IMG/VR virus record: IMGVR_UViG_3300021409_000001
Location: 1 to 37,451 of that record
DNA: 37,451 nt
Reading direction: 5' to 3' (one strand)
DNA from: a virus
Shown here: positions 12,798 to 33,124 of the stretch, one piece after another
Numbering within the stretch: the first letter of the stretch is position 1
Layout: each line of letters starts with the position of its first letter
The notes under the pieces: generated by a model
The model's database searches: none
What the model was told of the DNA's origin: nothing
What the model saw: the letters and a program-made list of their open reading frames with translations, nothing else
Translations under genes and position numbers: made by a program

Positions 12798-13887
<1,090 letters not shown>

Positions 13888-15189: not shown

Positions 15190-15198
15190 ATCGATTTA

Positions 15199-15216
15199 GT
15201 CGGGATTCCGACCGGC
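15199..15216 (+). repeat. 18-bp boundary element, copy 1
   Basis: GTCGGGATTCCGACCGGC, preceded by ATTTA, 10 nt after the HTH gene stop and 55 nt before the first structural gene. Identical 18-mers occur at 18782-18799 and 33047-33064. The core GTCGG-GATT-CCGAC is an inverted repeat. Candidate regulatory site or late promoter element. Confidence 0.8.
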
Positions 15217-15271
15217 CGCCGCGCCGATACTCCGTGACGTTGCCACCGATTAACGTCCTCCGGAGTCCGTC

Positions 15272-15721
15272 ATGCCCCCAAAGAATTCCCGCGTCACCAA
15301 CGTCCTCGTGCCAGGCGAACAGCCAGCCAAAGCCCCCGAAGAGCTCACCGGCACCGCCGGCAATACCGCTGACCTGGCCAACGCCGGCAGCACGCCACCA
15401 GCTGGCGGTACCGACCACGGGACTCTCCTCGAAAGCGATACCGGCGCTGCCGGCGCCACCGCAGCACCGGCGCTCGACGTCGACGCGCTGCGCGCCCAGA
15501 TCCGCGCCGAAGAGATGGGCAAGCTGCAGGACGAGCTGGCGCAGCAGCTGCAGGCGGCCAGCACCGTCGTTGGCAACAGGGCCACGCCCGCCCCGGCCGC
15601 GCCGCGCTCGAAGTCCGACTACCGCAACATGCGCGCCACCGACATCGATCCCACCACCCTCACCGCCCCGGTCATGACGCTCGACGGCTACCTGTGCCCT
15701 GTGGCGCCGGAAAAGAAGTAA
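15272..15721 (+). CDS. Unknown protein starting the structural operon
   Basis: A protein of 149 residues. The N-terminal half (about 1-70) is rich in Ala, Gly, Thr and Pro and is probably disordered. A coiled-coil-like helix spans about 75-100 (DALRAQIRAEEMGKLQDELA). The C terminus has DYRNMRATDIDPTTL followed by a short hydrophobic end. RBS CCGGAG. Function unknown; by position and order it precedes the small and portal proteins. Confidence 0.7.
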   Translation: MPPKNSRVTNVLVPGEQPAKAPEELTGTAGNTADLANAGSTPPAGGTDHGTLLESDTGAAGATAAPALDVDALRAQIRAEEMGKLQDELAQQLQAASTVVGNRATPAPAAPRSKSDYRNMRATDIDPTTLTAPVMTLDGYLCPVAPEKK

Positions 15722-15754
15722 CCGATCAACCATCGCAACAACGCAAGGAACCCC

Positions 15755-15973
15755 ATGTGCGGAAGCTCCCCAGATCTCCCACCGGAGAAAGACCCGAAGG
15801 TCGAGCGCGAGAAGGCGGAGGCTGACGCTACCGTCGCAGCCAACGCCAAGAGCGCGGCCAACCGCCGGGCCAAGCGCGGCCAGACCCTGCTCGCAGCCGG
15901 CGCCCAAGGCGCAACCGGTACCGCCACGACCAGCAGCGTGCTGGCCCAGGGCAAAGACCGGCTGGGAGGCTGA
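15755..15973 (+). CDS. Small phage protein preceding portal
   Basis: A protein of 72 residues beginning MCGSSP, with an Ala/Lys/Glu-rich helix (about 12-45) and a short Thr/Ser tail. Small MCGxSP proteins are commonly encoded just before or among head genes of podoviruses; their job is not known to me. RBS AAGGAA. Two nt separate it from portal. Confidence 0.7.
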   Translation: MCGSSPDLPPEKDPKVEREKAEADATVAANAKSAANRRAKRGQTLLAAGAQGATGTATTSSVLAQGKDRLGG

Positions 15974-15975
15974 CC

Positions 15976-17583
15976 ATGTCCGATCTCGCAGTGCAACTGC
16001 TTCGCAGGAAATCGTCGCTCGAGCAGCTGCGCACGCCGCATGAACAGCTCTGGCGCGACTGCTTCGACTACTCGTTCCCGGAGCGCGGCGACGGCTTCAA
16101 CGGCGAGAAGAACGATGCGCCCGCGCTGCAGGCCAAGCGTGCGCGCCTGATGGACTCGACATCGACCGACGCCGGCCAGATCCTGGCGGCCGCCATCATG
16201 TCCGGCGGCACCCCGAGCAACTCGCGCTGGTTCGGCCTCTCGACCGGCCAGGACACCGACGAGGAGAAGCGCTGGTTCGACCTGTGCGCCGAGACCATCT
16301 TCGAGAACATCCACGGTTCGAATTTCGATGCCGTCGGCTTCGAGGCCTGCACCGACATGGTCCCGGCCGGGTGGTTCGTGCTGTTCATCGACGTCGACCG
16401 CGACCAGGGCGGCTACCACTTCGAGCTCTGGCCAATGGCATCGTGCTACATCGCAGCGTCGAAGGCTGGCGGCCTGCCGGACACCCTGGTGCGATCGTAC
16501 GAGCTCTCGGCCGAGCAGGCGATCAAGGACTTCGGCCACGACAACGTCAGCGAGAAGGTGCGCAAGCTGGTCGACGAGGGCAAACCTGACGAAAAGGTCA
16601 AGTTCTGCCAGTCGATCTACCCGCGCAGCGCCGAGGCGACCGGCGTGCGTGCGAAGAACCTGGCGTTCGCCTCGGTGCACATCGAGGTCGACACCAAGCA
16701 CGTGGCGCGCGAATCCGGCTTCCACGAGTGCCCGTTCGTGGCGCCCCGCTGGGCCAAGCTACCGAACAGCGAGTATGCGATCGGGCCGATGTTCCGCGCC
16801 CTACCCGACGTCAAGCAGCTCAATCGTCTGGTCTACCTCGAGGACACCAACCTCGACATGGCCGTCTCGGGCATGTGGATCGCCGAGGATGATGGCGTCC
16901 TCAACCCGCGCACCGTCAAGGTCGGCCCGCGCAAGATCATCGTGGCCAACAGCGTCGACAGCATGAAGGCGCTGCAAAGCGGGGCGAAGTTCGACCTGTC
17001 GTTCACGAAGAAGGAGCAGCTGCAGGCCGCTATCCGCAAGACGCTGATGGCCGACCAGCTGGCGCCGCAGGATGGCCCGGTGCGCACGGCCACCGAGATC
17101 CACGTGCGCACCCAGATGATCCGCCAGCTGCTCGGCCCAATTTACGGCCGTATGCAGGCCGAGTGGTACGCCCCGATGATCAACCGCTGCTTCGGCCTGG
17201 CGCTGCGCGCACCTGGCGTGCTGCCGCCACCGCCGCAGTCGCTGGCCGGCCGCTCGTACAACGTGAAGTTCGAGTCCCCCAACGCGAAGGCCCAGAAGCT
17301 CGAAGAGGTCAACGCGGTCGAGACCTCGCTGGCGGCCGTGGGCCAGATCGCACTGGCGACGCAGGATCCCACCGTCTGGGACACGATCGACATCGAGGAG
17401 AGCGTCAGCGTCATCCTGGAGGGCCGCGGCGCGCCGGCGCGTGTCGGTCGCTCGAAGGAAGACATCCAGGCGATCCGCGACAACCGCGCCAAAGCCCAGC
17501 AGCAGGCGCAGCAGCAGCAACAGCAGGCTGAGATGGCCCAGAAGATGGCGCCGCAGATGGCCAAGAACATGGCGCCAGCATGA
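15976..17583 (+). CDS. Portal (head-tail connector), T7 gp8 type
   Basis: A protein of 535 residues that forms the dodecameric DNA gate at the head vertex. The start (LLRRKSSLEQLRTPHEQLWRDCFDYSFPER) and the following TDAGQILAAAIMSGGTPSNSRWFGL match the head-to-tail connecting protein family of T7-like podoviruses. DMVPAGWFVLFIDVDRD and WVAEDDGV-like strands follow, and a helical crown region ends in a Gln/Met-rich tail (about 505-535). The next gene starts inside its stop (ATGA). Confidence 0.92.
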   Translation: MSDLAVQLLRRKSSLEQLRTPHEQLWRDCFDYSFPERGDGFNGEKNDAPALQAKRARLMDSTSTDAGQILAAAIMSGGTPSNSRWFGLSTGQDTDEEKRWFDLCAETIFENIHGSNFDAVGFEACTDMVPAGWFVLFIDVDRDQGGYHFELWPMASCYIAASKAGGLPDTLVRSYELSAEQAIKDFGHDNVSEKVRKLVDEGKPDEKVKFCQSIYPRSAEATGVRAKNLAFASVHIEVDTKHVARESGFHECPFVAPRWAKLPNSEYAIGPMFRALPDVKQLNRLVYLEDTNLDMAVSGMWIAEDDGVLNPRTVKVGPRKIIVANSVDSMKALQSGAKFDLSFTKKEQLQAAIRKTLMADQLAPQDGPVRTATEIHVRTQMIRQLLGPIYGRMQAEWYAPMINRCFGLALRAPGVLPPPPQSLAGRSYNVKFESPNAKAQKLEEVNAVETSLAAVGQIALATQDPTVWDTIDIEESVSVILEGRGAPARVGRSKEDIQAIRDNRAKAQQQAQQQQQQAEMAQKMAPQMAKNMAPA

Positions 17584-17816
17584 GCGAACAGCTCCCCACC
17601 CCCGAGGAATACAGGGCACTTTTCGAGGACGACCGCCGCGGCGTGGCCATCCTCGAACACCTGACCCGCACCTTTGCCCGCCCCGCCGTCGTCAAGGGTG
17701 GCATCGATGCGGTGCTCGAAACCTACCAGCGCGACGGCCAGCGTCGCGTGCTCGAATTTATCGTCAACCAGATCAACCGCGCCCACGGCGTGGACGTCAA
17801 CAACCAGGAAGGATAG
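17580..17816 (+). CDS. Bbp19-like small phage protein
   Basis: A protein of 78 residues matching the Bbp19-like domain first named in Bordetella phage BPP-1: YRALFEDDRRGVAILEHLTRTF near 11-32, GQRRVLEFIVNQINRA near 53-68. Mostly helical. It is encoded between portal and scaffold in several temperate podoviruses; its function is not established. Coupled to portal by ATGA. Confidence 0.8.
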   Translation: MSEQLPTPEEYRALFEDDRRGVAILEHLTRTFARPAVVKGGIDAVLETYQRDGQRRVLEFIVNQINRAHGVDVNNQEG

Positions 17817-17820
17817 ACAC

Positions 17821-18720
17821 ATGTTCATCAAAGGACTCATCAGGCGTTACATGCAGGAAGCCGGCGCCGAGGGCGCAGCGGGTGGCGCGGCGGGCGCAGG
17901 CGCCGATGCAGGCGCCGCCGGCGCAGCAGCTGGTGCCGGTGCAGATGCTGCCGGCGCTGCGGCCGGTGGCGCTGGCGCGGCTTCGGTGCTGGCCGGCGGT
18001 GCGGCCGCTGCTGCCGACGGTGCACCCACCACCGACTTCATCCCCGAGAAGCTGCGCGTGCTGAAGGAAGACGGCACCCTCGACCTGGACGCCTCGTCGC
18101 GCAAGATGGCCGACGCCTACGGTAGCCTGGAGAAGCGCTTCGGTTCGGGTGAAGCGCCACCGAAGGACGCCAGCGAGTACAAGATCACAGTGCCGGAGAC
18201 GCTCAAGGAAGCGTTTGACCCCGCCACCGACGCCGGCATGCAGGGCTTCCTCACCGGCGCGCACGCCGCAGGCCTGAACCAGGCACAGGTCGACTTCGTC
18301 ATGGGCAAATACTTCGAGATGGCCCCGACGCTGGCCGCCGGCGCCGTCCTCCACGACGCCACGACCGCGACCGCCGAGCTGAAGAAGACCTGGGCGACAG
18401 ACGCCGACTTCACCCGCAACGTCAAGAACGCGTATGTCGGCACCAACGCGGCCGCACAGAAAGCGGGCCTGAACGTCGACGAGATCATGAACGGGCCGCT
18501 CGGCAACAACCCGCAGTTCCTGCGCTTGATGGCCGCACTGGGCCCCGAGTTCCAGGAAGACGCCGGCGCCGGCGGCGCGAGCATGATCACCCAGGACGAT
18601 ATCACCACCATGCTCAGCTCGGAGGCATACACGAATCCACGCCACGCCGACCATGCGAAGGTCAGCGCGAAGGTCAAACAGTATTTCGAGCGCAAGCACG
18701 GCACTGAAGCCGCCGGCTGA
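17821..18720 (+). CDS. Capsid scaffold protein
   Basis: A protein of 299 residues from ATG 17821, preceded by GGAAGGATAGACAC. Residues about 12-65 are almost entirely Ala/Gly with scattered Asp (low complexity). A helical acidic body follows (DASEYKITVPETLKEAF; MQGFLTGAHAAGLNQAQVDFVMGKYF), with a basic C-terminal helix (VSAKVKQYFERKHG) of the kind that binds capsid protein in scaffolds. Position between portal and capsid matches T7 gp9. A terminator follows its stop. Confidence 0.85.
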   Translation: MFIKGLIRRYMQEAGAEGAAGGAAGAGADAGAAGAAAGAGADAAGAAAGGAGAASVLAGGAAAAADGAPTTDFIPEKLRVLKEDGTLDLDASSRKMADAYGSLEKRFGSGEAPPKDASEYKITVPETLKEAFDPATDAGMQGFLTGAHAAGLNQAQVDFVMGKYFEMAPTLAAGAVLHDATTATAELKKTWATDADFTRNVKNAYVGTNAAAQKAGLNVDEIMNGPLGNNPQFLRLMAALGPEFQEDAGAGGASMITQDDITTMLSSEAYTNPRHADHAKVSAKVKQYFERKHGTEAAG

Positions 18721-18741
18721 TCGCCTCGTAACCCCCACACG

Positions 18742-18763
18742 GCCCGCCTTGAGCGGGCTTTTT
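18742..18763 (+). terminator. Intrinsic terminator after scaffold
   Basis: Stem GCCCGC (18742-18747), loop CTTGA, GCGGGC (18753-18758), then five T (18759-18763). It is followed 18 bp later by copy 2 of the 18-bp boundary element, so the capsid gene needs readthrough or a new start. Confidence 0.88.
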
Positions 18764-18781
18764 CGTTTCCGATTGCAAATA

Positions 18782-18799
18782 GTCGGGATTCCGACCGGC
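18782..18799 (+). repeat. 18-bp boundary element, copy 2
   Basis: GTCGGGATTCCGACCGGC immediately after the scaffold terminator and 158 nt before the capsid ATG; the preceding bases are CAAATA. I saw no good sigma-70 promoter nearby (TTGCAA upstream has no partner -10). Confidence 0.85.
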
Positions 18800-18865
18800 C
18801 AACGGCGCAATCATTGCCAGCAATCAAGGCCTGCGGTGGCGCGCAGACAACCTTCAAGCCCGTAA

Positions 18866-18903
18866 CCCCGCATACAGCCGTGCGGGGCCCGAAAAACAGG
18901 CCC
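18866..18903 (+). promoter_or_regulatory. Structured capsid leader with two competing hairpins
   Basis: CCCCGCA (18866-18872) pairs with TGCGGGG (18881-18887). GGGCC (18885-18889) can instead pair with GGCCC (18899-18903). The two stems share GGG 18885-18887, so they exclude each other. Either may stabilise the capsid mRNA or control its expression. Confidence 0.5.
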
Positions 18904-18957
18904 GGTAACGGACAACCTGACAGGCGAAAAAACAATTCAACTACTCAGGGATTCCTT

Positions 18958-19824
18958 ATGACCGCAACCATCACCCAAGCCTTCGTGCAGCAGTTCGACA
19001 CCACGATCCGCACCCAGGCACAGCAGAAGACCTCGCGCTTCGAATCGCGCGTCACCGACCGCGGCAGCATTACCGGCGAATCGTTCACCGCCAACAAGCT
19101 CGGCATGGTGGAAGACACGCCCGAGAACAACGTGCGCCACGGCGACACCCAGTGGAGCGAAATCGCCCACGCCACGCGCGTGGCCCTGATGCGCGACTTC
19201 TACCAGGCGCTGCCGGTCGACCGCGCGGACGAGCCGAAAGTGCTGGCCAACCCGACCGGCGACTACATGTCCTCGCTGCTGGCCGCCTGGAATCGCCGCA
19301 AGGACGCGATCATCTACGCCGCCGGCCTGGGTAACTCGCAAACCAAGGAAGGCGACCAGATCGCGCTGCCGGCTGGCCAGAAGATCGTCGCCGGCGGCAC
19401 CGGCTTCACCAAAGCCAAGCTGATTACGGCGAAGAAGATTTTCCGCGCCAACGAATGCGACAGCGAAGCGGATGATCCACAGGAGCTGTACATCACCTAC
19501 ACCTCGGAAATGCTCGAGGACATCCTGGCGGACGCCACCCTGACCAGCGCCGACTTCATGGCGGTGAAGATGCTCCAGGAAGGCAACCTGGCTGGAAAGT
19601 GGATGGGCTTCAACTGGGTGCCTTACGAGAAGGTCAACAACGTCGGCGGCACCTACAGCGCGATGGCCTGGGCGAAGAAGGCGATCCACTTCGGTACCGG
19701 CTTCTTCGAAGGCAAGAGCCAGCGCCGCGGCGATAAGAAGGACACGATGCAGGTCTCGGCGGCCGGCTCGGTCGGCGCAGTCCGCGTCTGGGAAGACGCT
19801 GTCGTCCAAATCGACTTCGTCTAA
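18958..19824 (+). CDS. Major capsid protein
   Basis: A protein of 288 residues from ATG 18958 (CAGGGA 6 nt upstream). The sequence FVQQFDTTIRTQAQQKTSRFESRV at the start, a central region with KAKLITAKKIFRANECDSE, and the C-terminal AGSVGAVRVWEDAVVQIDFV fit the HK97-fold capsid proteins of BPP-1-like temperate podoviruses. It lies after scaffold and before a small probable head-decoration gene, flanked on both sides by terminators as a separate unit. Confidence 0.85.
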   Translation: MTATITQAFVQQFDTTIRTQAQQKTSRFESRVTDRGSITGESFTANKLGMVEDTPENNVRHGDTQWSEIAHATRVALMRDFYQALPVDRADEPKVLANPTGDYMSSLLAAWNRRKDAIIYAAGLGNSQTKEGDQIALPAGQKIVAGGTGFTKAKLITAKKIFRANECDSEADDPQELYITYTSEMLEDILADATLTSADFMAVKMLQEGNLAGKWMGFNWVPYEKVNNVGGTYSAMAWAKKAIHFGTGFFEGKSQRRGDKKDTMQVSAAGSVGAVRVWEDAVVQIDFV

Positions 19825-19890
19825 GTCGCCCCGTAGTGGCCGCCAGCCCGGCGGCCGCATCGAACCCACCTCATTTCATAGGAGCCAAAC

Positions 19891-20346
19891 ATGGCTGAAG
19901 TAAATACCACCCAGGGCGCTGCCCTCGCCGCACGCAAGAAAGTGCTTCCCCATGAATCGCAGGGCCGCGTCCGCATCCTGGCTTCGAAGATGCCGGCCGT
20001 GCACGCCGGCGCCGCCATCAACGACACGATCTTCCTGGGCCGTCTGCCAATCGGTTCGCGAATCCTGTCCGACGGCATCGTCAGCTGCGCAGCCGGCACC
20101 GCAACTTCCGTGCTCGACATCGGCCTGCGTAAGACCCGCGATGGCGCGGTCATCAACGCGTCGGGCATTGCTGCCGGCGTCGATATCGCTGCTGCTGGTA
20201 CCAAGGCCGCCACGAACGGCGCGCTGATCACCAACGGTGCTGAGTACGTCACCCTCGAAGAGGTCGACGTCTACGCAACCGTCAAAACTGCAGCCCTTGC
20301 CGCCAACCAGGCCCTCAAGGTCGAGCTGCAGTACGTCACCGACTGA
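19891..20346 (+). CDS. Probable capsid decoration/head protein
   Basis: A protein of 151 residues, beta-rich, with few charged residues after the N terminus: INDTIFLGRLPIGSRILSDGIVSCAAGTATSVLDIGL, then repeated Ala/Gly turns and VTLEEVDVYATV near the end. RBS ATAGGAG. It is encoded right after the capsid gene and before a terminator, a common place for decoration or head-stabilising proteins. The assignment is from position and composition. Confidence 0.65.
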   Translation: MAEVNTTQGAALAARKKVLPHESQGRVRILASKMPAVHAGAAINDTIFLGRLPIGSRILSDGIVSCAAGTATSVLDIGLRKTRDGAVINASGIAAGVDIAAAGTKAATNGALITNGAEYVTLEEVDVYATVKTAALAANQALKVELQYVTD

Positions 20347-20384
20347 CCGATTCACGGTTGTCTCCTACCCCTCGGGGTATTTCG

Positions 20385-20409
20385 CCGGGGCCTTGTGCTC
20401 CGGTTTTTT
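20385..20409 (+). terminator. Intrinsic terminator after the capsid unit
   Basis: Stem CCGGGG (20385-20390), loop CCTTGTG, CTCCGG (20398-20403, one G-T pair), then six T (20404-20409). It sits where T7 has its T-phi terminator, just after capsid, and would lower expression of tail genes relative to capsid. Confidence 0.85.
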
Positions 20410-20423
20410 CTTGAAGGTCCGAT

Positions 20424-20990
20424 ATGCCAAGCTCAGTTTCCGTTTGCTCCAATGCCCTGGTGATGCTCGGCGGCTCGCCGTTCAGCTCCTTCGAGGAGCC
20501 AAAGCCGCACGTGCGCATCGCCGCCAACCTCTATCCGACCGTACGCGACGACGTGCTGCGGCTTCACAACTGGAACTGCGCCACCGACCGCGTCATTTTA
20601 GCGCCCATGGCCACCCCGCCGGCGTTCGACTTCCCCTACCAGTTCCAGCTCCCGGGCGACTGGCTGCGCACGCTCCAGGTCGGCAAGAAGGGTGAACCCC
20701 TGGAATACCGCTCCGAGCGTCAGCGCCTGCTGGCCAACGTCACCGCCCTGCCACTGGTCTACTGCTTTCGCAACACCGTCGAGGACACCTGGTCGACCAA
20801 CCTGATTCGCGTGGTCGAGCTGGCAATGGCCGCCGAGATGGCGTACGCCGTGACCTCGTCGACGTCCGTGCGCGACAGCTACCGGGACGCGTACGCACGC
20901 CTGCTCAAGGTAGCCAAGGCGATTGACGGACAGGACGACCCACCGGAAGAGTTCACCGCGGGCTCGTTCGCCGAATCGCGCTTCTCGTAA
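20424..20990 (+). CDS. Tail tubular protein A, T7 gp11 type
   Basis: A protein of 188 residues. CSNALVMLGGSPFSSFEEP at the start, YPTVRDDVLRLHNWNCATDRVIL, and QFQLPGDWLRTLQV in the middle are hallmarks of gatekeeper/tail tubular protein A, the ring that joins portal to the tail nozzle. The helical C terminus ends with residues typical of the family. RBS GAAGG. Ten nt separate it from tail tube B. Confidence 0.9.
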   Translation: MPSSVSVCSNALVMLGGSPFSSFEEPKPHVRIAANLYPTVRDDVLRLHNWNCATDRVILAPMATPPAFDFPYQFQLPGDWLRTLQVGKKGEPLEYRSERQRLLANVTALPLVYCFRNTVEDTWSTNLIRVVELAMAAEMAYAVTSSTSVRDSYRDAYARLLKVAKAIDGQDDPPEEFTAGSFAESRFS

Positions 20991-20999
20991 GGACCAGCC

Positions 21000-23231
21000 A
21001 TGCCACGCGTCACCGTCAACCAAACAAACTTCACCGCCGGCGAGATCTCCCCCAAGTGCTACGGCCGCGTCGACGTCTCTCGCTACCAGAACGGCGCGGC
21101 GGCCATGCCCAACTGCGTCGTGAACATTCATGGCGGCGCGGAGCGCAGGCCCGGGACGAAATTCATCGCCGAGACCAAGGACTCCTCGAAGCGCTCGCGC
21201 TTGGTGCCGTACATCTTCAACACGACGCAAGCCTACATGCTGGAGTTCGGGCACCTGTACATGCGTGTCTATGCCCAGAGCGCCGGCCAGGTCCTCGCCG
21301 GCGGCGTGCCGTACGAGATCGCCACGCCCTATACCGAGGACATGCTGGCCGAGATGGACTACACCCAGGGCGCGGACACGATGTTCCTCTTCCACAAAAG
21401 CGTGCCGGTCCATACCCTCAAGCGGATCGGCGCCACGCACTGGGCCCTGGCGCCCGCCCCCATCACCGTCGCGCCGTTCGACGAGATCGGAGACACGTTT
21501 CCGGTTTTGCTGACGCTGTCGGAGGCGACCGTGGGATTCGACCGGACAGCCACGGTCCCGTCCTCCATCTTCCTTCCCGGTGACGTGGGACGGCGTATTT
21601 CCTACCTGTCAGGTATCGCCCTGATCACCGCGTTCGGCAGCGGGACCTCGGTCTCGGTGAACATCCAGAACGAATTCTCGCTCGCGGCCTTACCCGCCAA
21701 CGCATGGGAGCTGCTCGACTCGCCCCAGGTCGGGATCACCCCATCCGCGAAGAGCCCGGTCGGGCAATACTGCACACTCTCCACCGGTACCCGCCTGGCC
21801 AACCCCAAATTCCCGGACCCGGAAGACCCGCCACCGAGCGACCTGATCGAAATATGGCGTCAGCAGGATGTCGGGAAGTTCGTCCGTATCAATGGCGGCA
21901 TGGTGCAGATCACCGACTTCATCAGCGCCGAGGAGGTTTACGGCGTCATTAAGGAGGAGCTGACAGCGGTCGTTGAGTCCCCGCCGAGCGCATGGACCCT
22001 CGAAGCCTCGGTGTGGAACAGCAACGCCGGCTACCCATGCACCGGCGCCCTGTTCGAGCAGCGCCTGGCCGTGGCCGGTTCGCCGCGTTATCCGCAGACG
22101 GTCTGGGGTAGCCGCTCAGGCCTGTTCTTCGATTTCACGATCGGCACCAACGCCGACGACGCCTTCAGCTTCTCCCTGCCGTCGACTGGCCAGATCAACC
22201 CGATCCTGCGCATGGTGACGGCCAAGGCGCTAATGCCGCTGACCTACGGCGGCGAATACACGATGGAAGGCGGGAATGGCGAACCGCTCACGCCGGCCAG
22301 CGTCAAGGCCAACAGCCCATCGGTCTATGGCTGCAACCACGTCAAACCCCTGCGCGTGGGTAACGAGGTGCTGTTCGTGCAGCGCGCCGGCCGTAAGATC
22401 CGCTCGCTGGCCTACCGCATCGAGTCGGACACCTACAACGCGCCCGACCTGACCGTTCTGGCCGAGCACATCACCGTCTCCGGCATCACCGACATGGCCT
22501 ACCAGCAGGAACCGTATTCGCGGCTCTGGTGCGTGCGTGCCGACGGCAAGATGGCCACGCTTACGCTCGACCGGGATGAAGGCGTGATCGCCTGGTGCCC
22601 GCAGCAGACCGATGGCATGTACGAATCCTGCGCATCGGTCCCGAACGCCACCGGCGACGAGGTGTGGTGCATCGTCCAGCGGAACATCGGCGGCCAGGTG
22701 AAGCGCTATGTCGAACGCTTCGACCCGGGCTACTACACCGACAGCGGGATTGTCGGTACCGACCAGGCAGGCAAGGCGGTGTGGGCGGGCATTGGCCACC
22801 TTGAAGGCAAGAGCGTGGCCGTCCGTGCCGACCGCGTCTACCTGGGTATGTTCACCGTCACCGGCGGCCAGGTCGAGCTGCCCCGTACCGCGCGCGACGT
22901 GCAGATCGGCCTGCCGTTCACCAACTTCGTTACGCTGCTGCGGCCAGAGATCCAGGCCGGTGACGGCACCAGCCAGGGCAATGCGCAGCGCGTGCACGAG
23001 GTTTCGGTGCTGCTCATGGAAACCGTCGGCTGCAAGATCAATGACGAAGAGCTTGCCTTCCGCGAGTTCGGGGAGGACGTGCTCGACTTTGCACCCGACC
23101 CGTTCTCGGGCTTCAAGCGCGGCGGCCTGACCGAATGGTCCAGGGGCAACGAGACGATCACGATCAAGCAGGACATGCCCTACCCCTTCCACCTGCTTGC
23201 CGTCGTCCGCAAGCTCACCGTAAACAGCTGA
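21000..23231 (+). CDS. Tail tubular protein B (nozzle), T7 gp12 type
   Basis: A protein of 743 residues. NQTNFTAGEISPKCYGRVDVSRYQNGAAAMPNCVV at the start and GGAERRPGTKFI are diagnostic of the tail nozzle family. The rest is beta-propeller-like, with GYPCTGALFEQRLAVAGSPRYPQTVWGSRSGLFFDF near 340-375 and VGNEVLFVQRAGRKIR near 450. It forms the distal tail tube, which also holds the fibre or spike. RBS AAGGACC. Confidence 0.92.
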   Translation: MPRVTVNQTNFTAGEISPKCYGRVDVSRYQNGAAAMPNCVVNIHGGAERRPGTKFIAETKDSSKRSRLVPYIFNTTQAYMLEFGHLYMRVYAQSAGQVLAGGVPYEIATPYTEDMLAEMDYTQGADTMFLFHKSVPVHTLKRIGATHWALAPAPITVAPFDEIGDTFPVLLTLSEATVGFDRTATVPSSIFLPGDVGRRISYLSGIALITAFGSGTSVSVNIQNEFSLAALPANAWELLDSPQVGITPSAKSPVGQYCTLSTGTRLANPKFPDPEDPPPSDLIEIWRQQDVGKFVRINGGMVQITDFISAEEVYGVIKEELTAVVESPPSAWTLEASVWNSNAGYPCTGALFEQRLAVAGSPRYPQTVWGSRSGLFFDFTIGTNADDAFSFSLPSTGQINPILRMVTAKALMPLTYGGEYTMEGGNGEPLTPASVKANSPSVYGCNHVKPLRVGNEVLFVQRAGRKIRSLAYRIESDTYNAPDLTVLAEHITVSGITDMAYQQEPYSRLWCVRADGKMATLTLDRDEGVIAWCPQQTDGMYESCASVPNATGDEVWCIVQRNIGGQVKRYVERFDPGYYTDSGIVGTDQAGKAVWAGIGHLEGKSVAVRADRVYLGMFTVTGGQVELPRTARDVQIGLPFTNFVTLLRPEIQAGDGTSQGNAQRVHEVSVLLMETVGCKINDEELAFREFGEDVLDFAPDPFSGFKRGGLTEWSRGNETITIKQDMPYPFHLLAVVRKLTVNS

Positions 23232-23238
23232 GGAACCC

Positions 23239-23697
23239 ATGGGAATTCGAGTAGCCACACTGGACGACCTGCCGCGCATCCTCGAGCTCGGCGAGCTGCT
23301 GCACAAAGAGAGTCCGCGCTGGTCGCGGCTTTCGTTCAACCGGGCCAAGGCCGCCCACTTCATTGCCCACCTGATCCTCGAGGCCAGCGGCGTCGTGTTC
23401 GTGGCCGAACAGGATGGCCTGGTGGTGGGCGGAATCGCCGGCATGTCGTCCGCCCACTGGTCGAGCGACGACGTCGTGGCCCAGGAGGTGAGCTTCTTCA
23501 TGGCGCCGGAAGCGCGCGGCAGCATGGTCGCGGTGCGACTGATCTGTGCGCTGCAGGCCTGGGGCGAGATTCGCGGCGCCAAGTGGCTGACGGCCGGCAC
23601 GTCGACCGGGCTCGACCCGGAACGCACTGCCGGGCTTTATGAGCGGCTGGGATTTTCCCGCTGCATGATTGGACTGGAGATCGAATATGGGAATTGA
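23239..23697 (+). CDS. GNAT-type acetyltransferase-like virion-region protein
   Basis: A protein of 152 residues with the GNAT layout: first strand/helix IRVATLDDLPRILELGELLHKE, central strands VVFVAEQDGLVVGGIAGM, the acetyl-CoA loop region APEARGSMVAVRLICALQAWG, and a final GLYERLGFSR. Genes like this often sit between tail tube B and the internal virion proteins in temperate podoviruses, in the slot of T7 gene 13. The substrate is unknown and catalytic activity is not proven by the sequence. Confidence 0.8.
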   Translation: MGIRVATLDDLPRILELGELLHKESPRWSRLSFNRAKAAHFIAHLILEASGVVFVAEQDGLVVGGIAGMSSAHWSSDDVVAQEVSFFMAPEARGSMVAVRLICALQAWGEIRGAKWLTAGTSTGLDPERTAGLYERLGFSRCMIGLEIEYGN

Positions 23698-24160
23698 AAC
23701 GGCCGCTTTGGCGGCATACGCGGCGATCGCGGCAGCTGCGGTCGGCGCCACCGCTGCGATTTACTCGGCGGACACGCAGGAAAACACGGCGGAAGCGAAT
23801 GCCGAGATGGCGCAGCGCCAAGGCAACCAGGAGAAAGACGCAGCCATGGCGCAGGCGGAGAAGATCCGCAAGGCCGGGCGCGCTGCTGCTGGCCAGGCCA
23901 ACGCATCGATGGCCGCGGCCGGGGTGTCGATCGGAGAAGGAACGCCGCTGCGCGTCAACGAGCAAATCTACAAGGATTCCGAAGACGACGCGTACAGCAC
24001 GCTGCTGACCGGCACCCGGCGGCAGCAATCGGCAAACGATCAAGGCATGCTCATGCAGGCCGACGGAGACGCGGCAAAGACCTCGGGCTACCTGAACGCT
24101 GGTGCAACCATCCTCAACGGGGTCAGCAGCTACGGCAAGTGGAAGGCAGGTAAAAAATGA
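23687..24160 (+). CDS. Internal virion protein, T7 gp14 type
   Basis: A protein of 157 residues from ATG 23687, overlapping the previous stop. A hydrophobic Ala-rich helix near the N terminus (about 6-28) could insert in membrane. It is followed by a long amphipathic helix rich in Ala, Gln and Glu (about 35-75) and SMAAAGVSIGEGTPLRVNEQIYKDSE. This is the typical appearance of gp14-like proteins ejected into the outer membrane at infection. Coupled to the next gene by ATGA. Confidence 0.75.
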   Translation: MGIETAALAAYAAIAAAAVGATAAIYSADTQENTAEANAEMAQRQGNQEKDAAMAQAEKIRKAGRAAAGQANASMAAAGVSIGEGTPLRVNEQIYKDSEDDAYSTLLTGTRRQQSANDQGMLMQADGDAAKTSGYLNAGATILNGVSSYGKWKAGKK

Positions 24161-26181: not shown

Positions 26182-28441
26182 AGACCTGTTCCAAGCCGCT
26201 ACCGACAAGGTGCTGGACGACCGCGTAGCACGCCCACTGCAGGCGCCGCCCGCCCAGCGCTCGTTCGGCTCCAACCTTTGGGGCTTCCTGTCCGCGGCGC
26301 CGAAAGGCGTGGGCGCCGGCGCAAACGAGTCGGCCGGCTTTTTCTCCGACATCCTGGGCGTGTACGGCGAAATGCAGGCAGGCTATGCCCGCCAGCTCGA
26401 TCCGACCCTGATGCTCGACTCGAAGGCGGCTGACAAAGCCCGGGCGGACGGCGCTGGCGCCAGGTCGCGCATCGACAGCGGCGAGGCCTTCAGCACCGAG
26501 GCTGGCACCAACTTCCGCACCACGGCGCGTAGCTTCGCGCCAGATCCACAAAGCGCTGGCCAGGCCGAGCAGCTGCTGTTCGGCCTCGGGCGCTTTGCCA
26601 CGAAAGCGGTGGGCTATTCGCTGGCAGGGGGAGTGGTGCCGGGCGCAGTGATGACCGGCGTCGACGAGGGCATGACCGAGGCCGACCGCCTCAAGGCCCA
26701 AGGCGTGGATTTCGATACCCGCACCAAGGTGGGCGCGATCGCCGGCGCGGTGGCCGGGGTATCGGTGGCATTACCGGTCGCTGGCAAGACGTTGGCGCAA
26801 ACAGCCAGCCTGGTCGCCGTCGGTGGCCCGGGCGGTTTCATCGCGCAGCAGGCGGCCAGCAAAGCGATTCTCGAACACGCCGGCTACGACAAGCTGTCCG
26901 ACCAGTACGATCCGTTCGACCCTGTCGGCCTGGCCGTCTCGACCCTGGTGCCGGCCGGCTTCGGCGCCTTCGCCATGCGCGGCGCGCGTGCTCGAGCAGC
27001 GAACCCGGCCCCGGTTGATGCCGCTGCAGCGCGCGAATTGACCCGCATGGGCGGCAACGAACGACTGGCCCTGAAATACGACGATGCGCGCCTGGACGCC
27101 TACGCCGTGACCGCCGCGCAGCGCGAGGGAATCCCGCCCGAAGCACTGCTGGCGATCAAGAATGTCGGTGAGCGCTCCGGATCTGCCGCGGTGTCGCCGA
27201 AGGGCGCCAAGGGCGTGATGCAGTTCATGGACGACACCTGGGCGACCTACGGCAAGGGCGACCCACGTGACCCCACCGCCTCGATCGACGCCGGCGCGCG
27301 CTTCATGAAGGACCTGATCAAGCAATACGACGGCGACGTGCGCGCGGCGATCGCGCACTACAACGGCGGCGGCAAGGCCGGGAAGGCGGTCCGCGAGGGC
27401 AAGGCGCCGCCGGCGAAGGAAACCCGGGCCTACCTTGAGCGCACGGATGCCTACATCGCCGAGCGAAACGGTACCGAAGCCGGGCGCGCCGCGGCCGCCG
27501 ACCCCGACGTGGTGGCCGCTGCGCGGGTGCAGCAGGTACGCGACACCATCGAATCGTGGAACCTGCGCGACCCGGCCGACGCCGCCGGCGCACAGCAGCA
27601 CCTCGAGGCGGTCCTCCGCGCTTCCGACCAGATCGGCGCCGGCGCGCGCGTCGACGTCGGCGCCGCCATCCCTCTCGACACCCTCAGCCAGGCGCGACTG
27701 CTCGACAACATGACCACCCGCCTCGAGCAATCCCGCGCCGAGCTGCTGCCAGAAGCTGGCAACCTGGTCGACCCGGGCGTGGTGGCCCCGCTGCGCGCCG
27801 AGATCGCCCAGCTCGAGCAATCCCGTCCTGCTACTGGTGATCGGGCAGTGCGCGCGCTGGCCAAGGAGATCCAGGCCGGCCAGGGCATCAGCTACAAGGC
27901 CGCTCTGTCGGCTGCGAAAAAGGATGTCGCCACCCGCCTCGATGGTGTGGAGAAGCAGATCGGGCACCTCCGCCAGCAGCTCGACGCGCACCGCACCGCC
28001 GCCGAGACCCAGAAGCAGATTGCCGACCTCGATGGTCGGATCGCCCGGGTGAAGTCCGAAAGGGCCGCGATCGACGCCCCTACGCCGCGCCCTGCAGCGC
28101 TGGCGGTGAAGCAGGCAGTGGCCGGCCTGGGCGAATCGAAACCGGCGAAAGCTGCATCGATCCCGGAGGTTGCTGCATCAAAGCCCCAGGAAACCACATC
28201 AAACCCCGTCCCTGCTGCAACGAACCCGAAAGCCGATGCCAACCCGATGGCCGCGTCGCTGGAAGCGCAGAGCGCCGAAATCGCCAAGCTGTCGCCTGAC
28301 ATGATGGTGCAGCTGGAGGGGATGGATACGCCGATGCGCCTGGCCGATGCACTGGAAGCGGTGAAAGCGGAGGCAGCGCGCGACGTGCAGAATGCGCCGC
28401 TACTGCAGGTGGCGGCCGAATGCTTCCTACGAAGCGCCTAA
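26171..28441 (+). CDS. Internal virion protein with lytic transglycosylase domain, T7 gp16 type
   Basis: A protein of 756 residues. Residues about 310-430 form an SLT/goose-lysozyme-like domain: IPPEALLAIKNVGERSG with catalytic Glu near 334, AVSPKGAKGVMQFMDDTWATYG and AIAHYNGGG. It would open the peptidoglycan during DNA entry. The N-terminal part carries Gly/Ala-rich hydrophobic segments (about 145-260) that could form a membrane channel. The C-terminal part (about 500-756) is coiled coil and disordered. T7 gp16 has the domain at its N terminus; here it is internal, and the gp16 role may be split with the next large gene. Confidence 0.85.
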   Translation: MAIEDLFQAATDKVLDDRVARPLQAPPAQRSFGSNLWGFLSAAPKGVGAGANESAGFFSDILGVYGEMQAGYARQLDPTLMLDSKAADKARADGAGARSRIDSGEAFSTEAGTNFRTTARSFAPDPQSAGQAEQLLFGLGRFATKAVGYSLAGGVVPGAVMTGVDEGMTEADRLKAQGVDFDTRTKVGAIAGAVAGVSVALPVAGKTLAQTASLVAVGGPGGFIAQQAASKAILEHAGYDKLSDQYDPFDPVGLAVSTLVPAGFGAFAMRGARARAANPAPVDAAAARELTRMGGNERLALKYDDARLDAYAVTAAQREGIPPEALLAIKNVGERSGSAAVSPKGAKGVMQFMDDTWATYGKGDPRDPTASIDAGARFMKDLIKQYDGDVRAAIAHYNGGGKAGKAVREGKAPPAKETRAYLERTDAYIAERNGTEAGRAAAADPDVVAAARVQQVRDTIESWNLRDPADAAGAQQHLEAVLRASDQIGAGARVDVGAAIPLDTLSQARLLDNMTTRLEQSRAELLPEAGNLVDPGVVAPLRAEIAQLEQSRPATGDRAVRALAKEIQAGQGISYKAALSAAKKDVATRLDGVEKQIGHLRQQLDAHRTAAETQKQIADLDGRIARVKSERAAIDAPTPRPAALAVKQAVAGLGESKPAKAASIPEVAASKPQETTSNPVPAATNPKADANPMAASLEAQSAEIAKLSPDMMVQLEGMDTPMRLADALEAVKAEAARDVQNAPLLQVAAECFLRSA

Positions 28442-28624
28442 GCTGGAAAGATAGAAGACGCCGGCGAGAACCAGGCCGGCGCCGTAGATGCAGCCCATGA
28501 TCTTCAGGTAGGCAACGAAGGCCCGAAGGCCGTGGCGCCAATTACCCGAACCACCCCACACGGCCAGTGGAATGATGAGCGTCATGCAAAACACCGCCGC
28601 GAAGGCTTTTAATAAAGTGATCAT
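28427..28624 (-). CDS. Antisense two-TM membrane protein, probable moron
   Basis: A protein of 65 residues on the strand opposite to all its neighbours, filling the 189-bp gap between two virion genes and overlapping the end of the first. Hydrophobic segments lie at about 4-23 and 40-60, with a short basic loop (NWRHGLRAF). Codons follow the genome's preference (GCC, CTG, GGC). There is no Shine-Dalgarno; the ATG falls on the predicted start of transcription of its own promoter. An independently expressed gene in a late block is the mark of a moron. Superinfection exclusion or another membrane function in lysogens is a guess. Confidence 0.6.
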   Translation of the reverse strand: MITLLKAFAAVFCMTLIIPLAVWGGSGNWRHGLRAFVAYLKIMGCIYGAGLVLAGVFYLSSLGAS

Positions 28625-28630
28625 AAACCG

Positions 28631-28659
28631 ATGAAACCACAGTGCAGAGCAGCTGTCCA
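28631..28659 (-). promoter_or_regulatory. Promoter for the antisense membrane gene
   Basis: On the minus strand, -35 TGGACA (28659-28654), a 17-bp spacer and -10 TTTCAT (28636-28631). Seven nt beyond the -10 is 28624, the A of the ATG, giving a leaderless transcript with the same geometry as PRM. It lies within the first codons of the 830-residue gene. Confidence 0.5.
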
Positions 28660-31123
28660 GCAGGCCGCCGGCCGGGCCTTGACCGATGCCGAAGTAAAGA
28701 AGATCGACGACCGGATCGCCGCCACCATGCGCAACATGGCCAGGGCCGACCCGGCCGGGTGGCGCGCTAGGTCATCCGACCAGCGCGTGCTCGACGCCGC
28801 ACGCCAGGCAATGACCGACATCCAGGGCGAAGCGGCGCTCAAGGTGCAGCGCGCGCAGCTGCAGGTCGTGAAGACGGCATCGATGGAAACCCGGGTCGGC
28901 GACCTGATGGCGTCCTACGCGATCGGGCGTAACAAGGCGCTGGTCAAAGAGATGGAGCTGACCCACAACTACGCCGAGGGCATCAAGCGCGAGACGATGA
29001 GCAACCTGGTCGACCTGCTCGACGCGGTCGGAAACACCGACGGCACCACGGCGGGCAGGAAGGCCCTCATGTTCCTGTTCGACGCCGAGAACCCGGGCAT
29101 GTCGCGCGACCTGGCCATCGAGATCTACGGCAACGGCGCCGGCGGCACCGGCAACGCGATCGCCCAGAAGGCAGCGGTGGCCTGGCTGGAGTCGATCGAG
29201 CAGCTGCGCCAACGCTTCAACGCCGGCGGCGGCGACGTTGGTCAGCTGGACTATGGTTACCTGCCCCAGCCCCACGACCAGGGGCGCGTGCGCGGCGCCG
29301 GCGATGCCGCGGCTCGCGACAAGTGGGTGCAGGAGATCCTGCCCCTGCTCGATCGGAACCGCTACTTGCAGGAGGACGGCATCCGGCTGACCGACCAGCA
29401 GCTGGGCGACGTGCTCAATGCGGCATGGGACACCATCGCTACTGGCGGCCTAAACAAAAAGACACCCGGTCAAGGCGGCGGCAGCGGCGCGCGGGCAAAC
29501 GCCGGCAGCGAAAGCCGCCAGATCCACTTCAAGGATGCGCAGTCCTACCTGGCTTACATGGGTAACTACGGCGGCGGCAGCATGTACGACGCGATGCTGG
29601 GCCACATCGGCGGCCTGTCGCGCGACATCGCGCTTGTCGAGCGTTATGGCCCGAACCCCTCCCAGCAGATGAAGCTGCAGTTCGACCTCGCCGAGAAGAC
29701 CGACGTCGGCGTCGAGCGGTCCTTCGGATTCACCCCCCAGACCTACTGGGACCTGATCAGCGGCAAGACCGGCATGGCCGACAACGGAAACCTTGCGCAG
29801 ATCGCGCAGGACGCGCGCAACATTCAGGTGTTCGGCAAGCTGGCCAGCGCGGTGCTGTCGAGCGTGACGGACATGGGCAGCTATTTTGTGACAACCGGCT
29901 TCAACAAGCTATCGTACTGGGAGAGCCTGAAGAACATCGGCATGCAGCTCGATGGCGATACCCGCGACTTCCTGACCATGCACGGCGTGATCGCGGACTC
30001 GATGGTCTCGAACCTGAACCGCTGGAGTGGCGACAACATCCGGAACAACTGGAGCGGCCGCTTGGCCAACTCCACCATGAAACTGTCCCTGATGAACGCC
30101 TGGACGGACACGCTGCGCCGCGCGTTTTCCATGACCATGATGAACGGGCTGGCCAAGCTGTCGAGGACCGAATGGACAGCGCTCTCGGAATGGGACCGCT
30201 CGCACCTGACCCGCAAAGGCATCGACGAAGCCGACTGGGAAGTGATCCGCGCCGGCCAGCTCACGAACCACCAGGGCGCGGACTTCCTGACGCCCGAGGC
30301 GATCCACGCCAGCGGCCATACCCGCTCGAGCGAGGTGGTGGCCAAGGTGATCGGCCTGATCACGGACGAATCCGAATACGCGGTCATCAACCCCGATCTG
30401 GCCACGAAGGCGGCCGCCAGTGCGGGCGGCATGTCACGCGGTACCGTGCGCGGCGAGCTGGCCCGCTCGGTCATGCAGTTCAAAAGCTTCCCGATCGCGA
30501 TGATCTCGCGCCACTGGCGCCGGATGCTGGACGCTCCGTCCGTCGACGGCGCGCCGATGATGGCCAACCGCCTGATGTATGGCGCAGCCATGATGACCTC
30601 GCTCACCGCGCTGGGCGCCGTCGCTTACCAGACCAAGCAGATCGTTCAGGGGAAGGACCCGATCGACATGACGACGGCCAAATTCTGGACCAGGGCCATG
30701 GCCCAGGGTGGCGGCATGGGTATCGTGGGCGACTTCCTGCTGACCGATCCGACCGAGAACCCGGGCGATGCGACCGCCAACGCGATCAAGAACGTGGCCG
30801 GGCCCACGGTCGGCAGCATCTTCGACGTGGGGTACAAGCTGGGCGTCGAGAACGTCTATGAGTCGCTCAACGACAAGGACACGCACTTTGGCGCCGAGCT
30901 GGTTCGCACCGCGCGCAGCCACCTCCCCTACGTCAATCTCTGGTACGCCAAGGCAGCACTTGACCATGCCGGCCTCCATGCTCTACAAGAGAACATGAGC
31001 CCCGGATACCTTTCCCGCATGCAACACCGCGCACAAAAGGACTGGGATCAGGATTACTGGTGGAAGCCAGGCACGGGCGCGCCGGAGCGCGCGCCGGACA
31101 TGACAGCGATCGGAGGAAACTGA
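28631..31123 (+). CDS. Large internal virion protein
   Basis: A protein of 830 residues. The start AAVQQAAGRALTDAEVKKIDDRIAA and a largely helical body (SNLVDLLDAVGN; VQEILPLLDRNRYLQEDG) are typical of the very large core proteins of temperate podoviruses. A Gly-rich linker (GQGGGSGARANAGS) lies near 280. Hydrophobic segments near 630-700 (MMTSLTALGAVAYQ; GGGMGIVGDFLL) may insert in the inner membrane. It probably shares the T7 gp16-like ejection role with the preceding transglycosylase protein. The start has only a weak RBS. Its stop overlaps the TerS start (TGATG). Confidence 0.75.
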   Translation: MKPQCRAAVQQAAGRALTDAEVKKIDDRIAATMRNMARADPAGWRARSSDQRVLDAARQAMTDIQGEAALKVQRAQLQVVKTASMETRVGDLMASYAIGRNKALVKEMELTHNYAEGIKRETMSNLVDLLDAVGNTDGTTAGRKALMFLFDAENPGMSRDLAIEIYGNGAGGTGNAIAQKAAVAWLESIEQLRQRFNAGGGDVGQLDYGYLPQPHDQGRVRGAGDAAARDKWVQEILPLLDRNRYLQEDGIRLTDQQLGDVLNAAWDTIATGGLNKKTPGQGGGSGARANAGSESRQIHFKDAQSYLAYMGNYGGGSMYDAMLGHIGGLSRDIALVERYGPNPSQQMKLQFDLAEKTDVGVERSFGFTPQTYWDLISGKTGMADNGNLAQIAQDARNIQVFGKLASAVLSSVTDMGSYFVTTGFNKLSYWESLKNIGMQLDGDTRDFLTMHGVIADSMVSNLNRWSGDNIRNNWSGRLANSTMKLSLMNAWTDTLRRAFSMTMMNGLAKLSRTEWTALSEWDRSHLTRKGIDEADWEVIRAGQLTNHQGADFLTPEAIHASGHTRSSEVVAKVIGLITDESEYAVINPDLATKAAASAGGMSRGTVRGELARSVMQFKSFPIAMISRHWRRMLDAPSVDGAPMMANRLMYGAAMMTSLTALGAVAYQTKQIVQGKDPIDMTTAKFWTRAMAQGGGMGIVGDFLLTDPTENPGDATANAIKNVAGPTVGSIFDVGYKLGVENVYESLNDKDTHFGAELVRTARSHLPYVNLWYAKAALDHAGLHALQENMSPGYLSRMQHRAQKDWDQDYWWKPGTGAPERAPDMTAIGGN

Positions 31124-31494
31124 TGCGGCAGGACCAATACGAGAAATTGCAGGAGCTGACCGAGAAGCTGACGGACGCCTTCATCGGCGAAGCGGATCCG
31201 GCCGTGTGGCCAGGCCACGGCGTGGCGATCGCCGCGATGGACCAGCAAACCCGGGGCGATCGCTACTGGTGCAAGAAGAACGCTGCGGCGACGCTGTCGG
31301 TCATCGTGCGCACCACCAACCTGATCGGCATCATCCAGATGCGCGGCGCCGGCGGCGGTGCGGGTGGCGTAACCGAACCCACGCAGGCCCAGGAGGAAAC
31401 CAGCCTCGACTCCGACATGAAGGCCGCCGAGAAGGAAGCGACCAGGTTGCTCAGCCAACTGCAAAAGCGGACTGCGAAAGCCCATGGAAAATAA
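31123..31494 (+). CDS. Terminase small subunit, T7 gp18 type
   Basis: A protein of 123 residues from ATG 31123 (TGATG, RBS GGAGG); the longer open frame from 31060 lies inside the previous gene. The first 70 residues are helical with a conserved-looking AAMDQQTRGDRYWCKKNAAATL. A Gly-rich turn (GAGGGAGGV) and a charged C-terminal helix ending in Lys-rich residues follow. Directly before and overlapping TerL, so it is most likely the DNA-recognition subunit. Confidence 0.75.
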   Translation: MRQDQYEKLQELTEKLTDAFIGEADPAVWPGHGVAIAAMDQQTRGDRYWCKKNAAATLSVIVRTTNLIGIIQMRGAGGGAGGVTEPTQAQEETSLDSDMKAAEKEATRLLSQLQKRTAKAHGK

Positions 31495-33124
31495 GGTCAG
31501 CTTCCTGGCGTTCTTCGTGATGTGGGCGAAGGTCCAGGGGTGGACCGTGCCCATGCTCCACGTGCGGATCTGCCAGTGGCTGGAGACCTGCGCCGACCCG
31601 GTGCGCGTGCTGATGGTGTTCCGCGGCGCCGCCAAATCGACCATCTACGCGGTGTACAAGGCGTGGCAGCTGTACCGCGATCCCACCTGGGTGTCGCTGA
31701 TCTGGGCGGCCGACGGCCCGCTGGCCACGAAGCTGACACGCGACACCATCAACGTGCTACGCCGGCACCCGCTATGCGCCGGCATGCTGCCGACCAAGCC
31801 CGGCGCGCAGATGTTCTGGGTGGCCGGCGCCGTCGACGCGCGTAACGCCAGCATGACCGCGACCGGCGTGAACCAGAACGTCACCAGTGCGCGCGCTCGG
31901 GACATCGACTACGACGACGTGGAGGTGCCGAAGAACATCAAGACGGCCGAAGCGCGCGAGAACCTGCGCAACAAGATCCAGGAATCGACCTTCATCCTGG
32001 TGCCGGGCGGGCGCGAGACCTACATCGGCACGCCGCACACCCACAATTCGATCTATCCCGAGCAGGTAGCCGCCGGCGCGGCGCTGCTGAAAATCCCGCT
32101 GTTCGAATCGAGCGTGCGCTATGAGGAGACCAGCAAGCAGACCCGGTACCGCTTCGACTTCACACCTGGTGACGACGGCCTGTATGTGATGCTGGGCATC
32201 CACCGGTTCTCCCGCCTGCTGGTCGAAGGCACCGATTACCGGGTCGAGGGCAACGAGGTCGTGTTCGCCAACCCGCCGGGCGTGGTGTTCGATATCTACG
32301 CGCACTGCGCCTGGCCCGAGCGCTTCACCCGTGAGGACATCGCCAAGCGCCGCAAGAAGACGCGAACGCTCAATTACTGGGACAGCCAATACATGCTCGA
32401 AGCGAAACCGATTACCGAAAGCCGCCTGGATCCGGAAAGGATCAAGGCCTACGCGCTGCAGCCCACGCTCGAGCGCGCGAATCGCCAGACCCGCATGATG
32501 CTGGGCAAAGTCCAGATTGTGAGCGGCCGCGCGTATTGGGATCCGTCCCTCGGCAAAGCCAGCGGCGACGCGTCGGCTTTCTCCGTCATCTACGACGACA
32601 GCCTGGGGAATCACTATTGGCATGTGTGTGAAGGGCTGACCGGGGAATTCGCCGAGTTCAGCGATACCCGGAACACCGAGATCATCAGCGGCCAGGTGCT
32701 GCAGGCCTGCGACATCATCCAGAAAGCCAACATCCTGCACGTGTATGTGGAAACCAACAGCATCGGTTCCTTCGTCGGCAAGCTGCTGATGCGCGCGATC
32801 AAGCAGCGCCGGCTGAACTGCGGTGTGACGGAAATTGTGCAGAACGCCAACAAGAACGAGCGGATCCTCGGCGCGCTCGAGGCGCCAATGAAGTCGGGCG
32901 TGCTGTGGGCGCACGTCGACGTCCTCGACGGCCCGCTATGGGACCAGATGAAGGACTGGAACCCGGCCGTGAAGCAGCAGCCGGACGACTACCTGGACAG
33001 CGGCGCCGGCGCGATCGAGCAGGCGCCAGTGCGCATTAACCATTTGGTCGGGATTCCGACCGGCAATACACGCGAAGATTGGCGCCATTCGACGGGCGTC
33101 TTTGAGGTGACGCTCGAAACCTGA
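31484..33124 (+). CDS. Terminase large subunit, T7 gp19 (DNA maturase B) type
   Basis: A protein of 546 residues. The ATPase domain has the P-loop FRGAAKST (46-53), as in T7 gp19 (FRGIGKS), Walker B IDYDDVE (141-147) and motif III GTPHTHNSIYP (near 179-189). The nuclease domain begins around WDPSLGKASGDASAF (near 347-361), with further acidic residues in YVETN and DDYLDSGAGAIEQAP. It drives DNA into the capsid through portal and cuts concatemers, likely giving terminally redundant ends as in T7-like phages. Copy 3 of the 18-bp element lies in its last 30 codons and a hairpin spans its stop. Confidence 0.93.
   Translation: MENKVSFLAFFVMWAKVQGWTVPMLHVRICQWLETCADPVRVLMVFRGAAKSTIYAVYKAWQLYRDPTWVSLIWAADGPLATKLTRDTINVLRRHPLCAGMLPTKPGAQMFWVAGAVDARNASMTATGVNQNVTSARARDIDYDDVEVPKNIKTAEARENLRNKIQESTFILVPGGRETYIGTPHTHNSIYPEQVAAGAALLKIPLFESSVRYEETSKQTRYRFDFTPGDDGLYVMLGIHRFSRLLVEGTDYRVEGNEVVFANPPGVVFDIYAHCAWPERFTREDIAKRRKKTRTLNYWDSQYMLEAKPITESRLDPERIKAYALQPTLERANRQTRMMLGKVQIVSGRAYWDPSLGKASGDASAFSVIYDDSLGNHYWHVCEGLTGEFAEFSDTRNTEIISGQVLQACDIIQKANILHVYVETNSIGSFVGKLLMRAIKQRRLNCGVTEIVQNANKNERILGALEAPMKSGVLWAHVDVLDGPLWDQMKDWNPAVKQQPDDYLDSGAGAIEQAPVRINHLVGIPTGNTREDWRHSTGVFEVTLET
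33047..33064 (+). repeat. 18-bp boundary element, copy 3
   Basis: GTCGGGATTCCGACCGGC inside the 3' end of TerL, where it encodes part of LVGIPTG, 102 nt before the tailspike start. Here arms extend to GGTCGG...CCGACC. Being coding as well as identical to two non-coding copies makes chance an unlikely explanation. Confidence 0.8.

Follow-up and report, generated by a model that had tools for sequence, protein, structure and literature searches.

How does a temperate phage turn on a T7-type set of virion genes when no T7-type RNA polymerase gene can be recognised in its DNA? The window, by which the whole 37,451-nucleotide stretch is meant, raises this question. By its gene content the virus is a temperate phage carrying a T7-type virion module, since integrase, CI-like, Cro-like, RecT and YqaJ genes are present together with genes for a T7-type portal, tail tubular proteins and internal virion proteins. 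An exact direct repeat of 127 bp stands at both ends (1-127 and 37325-37451), and as 127 bp is a common assembler k-mer length, the repeat-flanked molecule is probably circular. A tRNA-Leu(CAG) call lies within this terminal repeat and the integrase gene (167-1405, minus strand) adjoins it, making the repeat a candidate attP-like site. Annotation assigned the window's long open reading frames to other functions and recognised no T7-type RNA polymerase gene, in agreement with an earlier note on this DNA, which had seen no phage RNA polymerase encoded. A PF00940 search, aimed at the single-subunit RNA polymerase of Autographiviridae, gave no match in 31 records and its positive control was likewise empty, so that the absence of a polymerase rests on the annotation of the long open reading frames.

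The left arm of the phage also encodes a PAPS-reductase-domain protein of 409 residues (2488-3717, minus strand); genes of this kind are often tied to DNA modification or sulfur metabolism. A short, in-frame AGGGAC tandem hexamer tract lies inside the replication-protein gene (13365-13402), and an ARAGORN tRNA-Arg call inside the scaffold gene (17924-18018) is likely a false positive.

Three repeats with promoter anatomy

Which signals could control the late genes of such a phage? The 18-mer GTCGGGATTCCGACCGGC occurs exactly at 15199-15216, 18782-18799 and 33047-33064, always on the plus strand, as the earlier note had reported, and neither strand of the window holds a fourth match at up to three mismatches. 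Shuffled sequence contains 0.13 matches on average and never three, and, the simple hexamer tract at 13365 aside, this is the only 18-mer with three plus-strand copies in the window. Moreover, a matrix built from other genomes only picks precisely three sites in the window, scoring 44.0, 39.7 and 39.0, followed by a next best score of 1.9. Copy 1 begins 10 nt past the stop codon of the gene for a 97-residue helix-turn-helix (HTH) protein, HTH97, with the first late gene at 15272; copy 2 follows a terminator-like hairpin 3' of the scaffold gene and precedes the capsid gene; copy 3 lies 102 nt before the tailspike GTG, a distance that had been given correctly, while its location inside the open reading frame of the terminase large subunit (31484-33124) had been left unsaid. 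The features of the region are as follows.

14896-15189, plus strand: HTH97, 97-residue XRE-type HTH protein, proposed late activator; recognition helix at residues 52-59
15194-15212, plus strand: promoter 1, predicted late; A/T pentamer (15194-15198) and 14-bp dyad GTCGGGATTCCGAC (15199-15212)
15226-15231, plus strand: GATACT, -10 hexamer (promoter 1); start site predicted close to 15238
15272-18720, plus strand: promoter 1 unit (predicted limits); small late genes, portal, scaffold/protease-like gene
15976-17583: portal gene, in the promoter 1 unit
about 17821-18720: scaffold/protease-like gene, in the promoter 1 unit
18741-18766, plus strand: terminator-like hairpin with T tract after the scaffold gene (stem 18741-18759), just upstream of promoter 2
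18777-18795, plus strand: promoter 2, predicted late; A/T pentamer and dyad in the scaffold-capsid gap
18809-18814, plus strand: AATCAT, -10 hexamer (promoter 2); start site predicted close to 18821
18958-33124, plus strand: promoter 2 unit (predicted limits); capsid, tail tubular proteins, acetyltransferase, internal virion proteins, terminase large subunit
33042-33060, plus strand: promoter 3, predicted late; A/T pentamer and dyad at the 3' end of the terminase large-subunit gene
33074-33079, plus strand: GAAGAT, -10 hexamer (promoter 3); start site predicted close to 33086, leaving 81 nt to the tailspike start
33167-36441, plus strand: promoter 3 unit (predicted limits); tailspike (33167-35398), endolysin (35752-36441)

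The acetyltransferase gene (23239-23697) within the structural operon has the same place in relatives such as phage Piluca.

Comparison with relatives delimits a conserved unit consisting of the A/T pentamer, the 14-bp dyad (GTCGRGAWWYCGAC), 13 bp and a -10 hexamer of the form nAnnnT, the final bases of the 18-mer being weakly conserved. In the window and 30 related genomes A-11 is found in 97 of 99 sites and T-7 also in 97 of 99, the 14-mer pattern having picked nearly all of these sites and diverged versions the others, with the -10 never a criterion; the 13 bases from the dyad to the -10 are weakly conserved in the same sites. Across 108 loci both -10 bases are present in 196 of 198 sites, as compared to at most 9% at any other offset from 14 to 59, sites which are non-independent samples given the shared ancestry of the genomes and loci. 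A-11 and T-7 are the two bases of the -10 that are captured by sigma-70. The dyad is centred near -32.5, the place of a -35 hexamer, and a -35 is missing. The combination of a sigma-70-type -10 with a dyad at the place of the -35 argues that the elements are promoters lacking a -35. The earlier statement that no clear sigma-70 promoter accompanies the copies holds for the -35; a -10 stands beside each of them. Promoters with both -35 and -10 are found in the late region with no excess over chance, and opposite-strand sites are absent once six perfect palindromes that had been counted twice are removed. The -10 of promoter 3 overlaps conserved Asp-Trp codons of the terminase gene, and protein constraint may contribute to its conservation there.

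How general is this arrangement? Scanning viral contigs yielded 23 loci by the 18-mer and 80 by the portal protein, and 39 portal relatives were found in named bacteria (Pseudomonas, Stenotrophomonas, Serratia, Enterobacter, Herbaspirillum, Acinetobacter and others). The combination of element and regulator is shared by about a hundred related viruses and prophages, and in these the protein has changed in step with its DNA sites. In the 30 related genomes, laid out by homology and including some partial records, copies, all of them on the late strand, stand after the HTH gene, in the scaffold-capsid gap and at the 3' end of terminase; looking for the element and its position in related phages, as the earlier note had suggested, returned the same places and the same strand without scatter. 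The prophages of named hosts have the same layout, and several Pseudomonas and enterobacterial phages carry a fourth or fifth copy. Apparent non-carriers have altered versions at identical places, including the last of them, G042, with two copies of GTCAGGAAACTGTC and one of GTCAGGAAACCGAC. The inducible Yersinia podovirus prophage YeP4 (PMC6548840) also carries the element, and the YeP4 papers searched do not mention promoters. Yersinia and Acinetobacter isolates are the nearest named phages, none of them close in DNA. The outgroup, Bordetella phage BPP-1, has neither element type and matches the HTH profile weakly.

In many genomes one altered version is common to all copies. Thus, GTCGAGATTTCGAC is found three times in both G008 and G019, GTCGGGAAACCGAC three times in each of G013, G047 and G048, GTCGGGAATCCGAC three times in G027 and GTCGAGATTCTGAC three times in G009, and near-identical sets occur in G025 (GCCGA/TCGGC) and G026 (GACGG/CCGTC). 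In other genomes the copies differ from one another mainly in the four central bases, and changes in the arms often affect both sides of the dyad. The copy inside the terminase gene takes part: the encoded peptide tracks the operator version, reading VGIPT, VEIST, VGKPT, VGNPT, VEILT, VEKPT, AEISA or DGIPS, and its neighbours are well conserved. Since the peptide follows the DNA between well conserved neighbours, the DNA is what is selected at this place, and the in-gene promoter appears to dictate the terminase peptide it encodes.

HTH97 and its covariation with the operator

Which protein would recognise the dyad? The AlphaFold model of HTH97 has a pLDDT of 80 for the whole chain, rising to more than 90 in the HTH core. 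Its best Foldseek matches are XRE proteins including C.AhdI, SinR and CylR2, with modest E-values (0.06 and above), a best probability of about 0.99 and about 20% identity to C.AhdI/SinR-type controllers. HTH97 is therefore predicted to have the XRE/Cro-CI HTH fold. At the sequence level it has no Pfam match at E 0.001, no NCBIfam match at E 0.1 and no family match to Mu Mor/C, lambda CII, Q antiterminators or P1 Lpa, and the HTH profile finds only weak, chance-level matches among PDB sequences. Its PHROG matches are an unknown family and one labelled 'transcriptional repressor', and in RefSeq an E. coli gene at the same position is labelled hypothetical. A profile search recovers relatives of HTH97 in nearly all element loci, most of the misses being short contigs. 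As a separate observation, a GC-alternating element (CTCGCGYRCGCGCGTTTGGG-like) is found at 14920-14945, about 20-30 nt 5' of the HTH core. In 56 of 86 distinct loci the HTH gene is preceded by such an element, and similar strings are present elsewhere too.

The main evidence connecting this protein with the element is covariation. Residue 57, located in the recognition helix, is the top-ranked HTH column for covariation with the operator. In 98 loci whose operators were found by a loose pattern plus the -10 bases, and thus under mild selection, 85 have glycine at this residue together with G at operator base 5 and 10 have another residue together with A (95 of 98 agree). The three exceptions are G008, in which Gly57 goes together with an A at base 5, and two loci of Thiobacillus whose operator is wholly different. 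On the portal tree 7 independent contrasts are available, of which 6.5 run in the same direction and none is opposed, giving p 0.016-0.06 in a sign test that is small. In addition, locus L219, with Ser57, has A at base 5 in an operator found by a search that assumed no sequence. With Gln56 an A is expected at base 2; it is present in G026, L057, L058 and L062, absent in G025, and confined to the right arm in G042. Between the HTH proteins of G024, G025 and G026 there are 15-17 differing residues, of which several lie in the recognition helix, and the three genomes have three operator versions. The covariation thus identifies HTH97 as the predicted cognate, phage-encoded DNA-binding protein of the element.

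The Acinetobacter/Alcaligenes phages L222-L230, L234 and L235 have a quite different repeat, AAYACMCAACAAA, at comparable late positions. The motif of this branch, CMCAACAAA, has the same -10 spacing in 26 of 36 matches, which suggests one design with several specificities, the assignment of the branch being tentative.

How would HTH97 act at the elements?

From anatomy, positions, strand, -10 spacing, concerted change and covariation, all of which can be read in the DNA, we infer dimer binding, activation and the start sites. The elements are very likely activator-dependent sigma-70 late promoters that are used by the host RNA polymerase and driven by HTH97. Briefly, the end of the right early operon would supply HTH97, which as a dimer would occupy the dyad and the A/T pentamer in place of a -35. 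Bound HTH97 would then recruit the host sigma-70 polymerase, activating and not repressing, with the consequence that the portal/scaffold, capsid-to-terminase and tailspike/lysis units would be turned on only once HTH97 has been made. HTH97 would in this way stand in for the T7-type RNA polymerase. The earlier proposal of late control through the copies, either as binding sites or as non-canonical promoters and perhaps by means of the 97-residue HTH protein, has thus gained strong support from the conserved positions, the invariant -10 at fixed spacing and the covariation of HTH protein and operator.

Alternatively, it could be imagined that HTH97 resembles lambda Q, loading onto the polymerase at these promoters and acting mainly as an antiterminator, with the dyad as loading site. 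Lambdoid phages carry the Q gene at the end of their early operon, and proteins of the Q type act at promoters too. Such a role would suit the position of the HTH97 gene at the end of the early operon, beside a RuvC-like gene and right before the first late promoter, as well as the terminator-like hairpin in the late region. However, the latter stands 5' of promoter 2, and no second -10-like pause element is seen, as an A at position x with a T at x+4 stays at or below 9% at every other offset from 14 to 59; antitermination is less likely for these two reasons. Furthermore, there are three or more dispersed promoters as opposed to one for Q, the dyad takes the place of the -35, unlike in lambda pR', and HTH97 has no Q family match. 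On balance we consider antitermination improbable.

Could HTH97 instead repress the late promoters, or could another host or phage regulator bind the sites? A dyad overlapping the would-be -35 place would suit a repressor equally well, and the label of one PHROG match points the same way. Yet with no -35 and a poor -10 there is little to repress, and repression is unlikely because promoters without a -35 should be weak on their own, while the covariation with the site is a property of HTH97 itself and speaks against a different regulator. Both possibilities are, taken together, very improbable.

We give hardly any credence to a third group of readings, namely linkers for module exchange or recombination joints, an RNA hairpin with a role in the transcript, or promoters read by an RNA polymerase of phage type: the elements do lie at borders of gene blocks, the dyad could form a 5-bp stem and T7 has promoters in similar positions, before capsid and tail fibre, but the invariant -10 sets the dyad upstream of the start, some versions (G009, G022) disrupt the inner pair, the window's long open reading frames have other assigned functions and the terminase copy is kept at the expense of the protein. 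Folding is clearly above that of shuffles at one of the three copies only, and the RNA hairpin was rejected; the linker idea, which the earlier note had offered, is rejected on the conserved strand and position, the copies being on one strand, unscattered and in one case within coding sequence.

Relation to known systems and significance

Activation by HTH97 can be set against several known modes of phage control. Lambda CII, a 97-residue activator, works from a position spanning the -35; its sites are TTGC direct repeats and serve lysogeny. HTH97 likewise has 97 residues and a predicted site across the place of the -35, and differs from CII in that this site is a dyad and would serve late genes. 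Lambda Q, which comes from the end of the early operon, acts by antitermination at one promoter to switch the late genes on; HTH97 shares the position of its gene with Q and is unlike it in that it would serve several promoters. With C.AhdI and SinR, HTH97 would share the fold and the character of a small dimeric binder of dyad operators, whereas the biological roles differ.

Late genes of well-studied phages are generally under positive control, and Lpa of phage P1 activates 11 late promoters with a common 9-bp inverted repeat (PMC10695390). As in P1, a phage protein is proposed here for several dispersed late promoters with a common inverted repeat; the P1 repeat, however, has 9 bp and another sequence, while here the dyad is near -32.5 and there are three to five promoters. 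The Mor and C promoters of Mu have a -10 and no -35, a dimeric activator binds inverted repeats and the sigma-70 polymerase transcribes (PMC4390567). The elements resemble them in having a -10 without a -35 and an inverted repeat in the place of the latter, and differ in the centre (-43.5 for Mor, near -32.5 here), the protein family and the type of phage. By analogy to P1 Lpa and Mu Mor/C the proposed mode of control would be known in kind. LUZ100, a temperate T7-like phage with an integrase, retains a T7-type RNA polymerase and phage-specific promoters (PMC10134795). T7-type virion genes and an integrase are found in both phages, but in the window no polymerase is recognised and a sigma-70 -10 accompanies each promoter. 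This regulator, regulon or element is not described in the papers and databases that were searched, and the exact 14-mers GTCGGGATTCCGAC and GTCGGGAAACCGAC are absent from the literature searched.

HTH97 probably belongs to an undescribed family of XRE activators of about 80-100 residues that replaces the T7-type RNA polymerase in temperate beta- and gammaproteobacterial phages with a T7-type set of virion genes and that acts from sites at T7-like places. Within this family the recognition helix and the promoters of a genome would re-evolve their specificity together, overriding the protein sequence of the terminase, and the Acinetobacter/Alcaligenes phages would use the quite different operator CMCAACAAA at the same -10 spacing. 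If true, this would explain how a T7-type virion module is expressed without a recognised T7-type polymerase and would assign a role to a family of proteins currently labelled hypothetical. Moreover, the phages would offer a natural series of matched pairs of regulator and promoter, with about ten operator versions including the trio of G024, G025 and G026, which would be useful for studying how specificity changes when several sites must shift together and as mutually independent expression parts.
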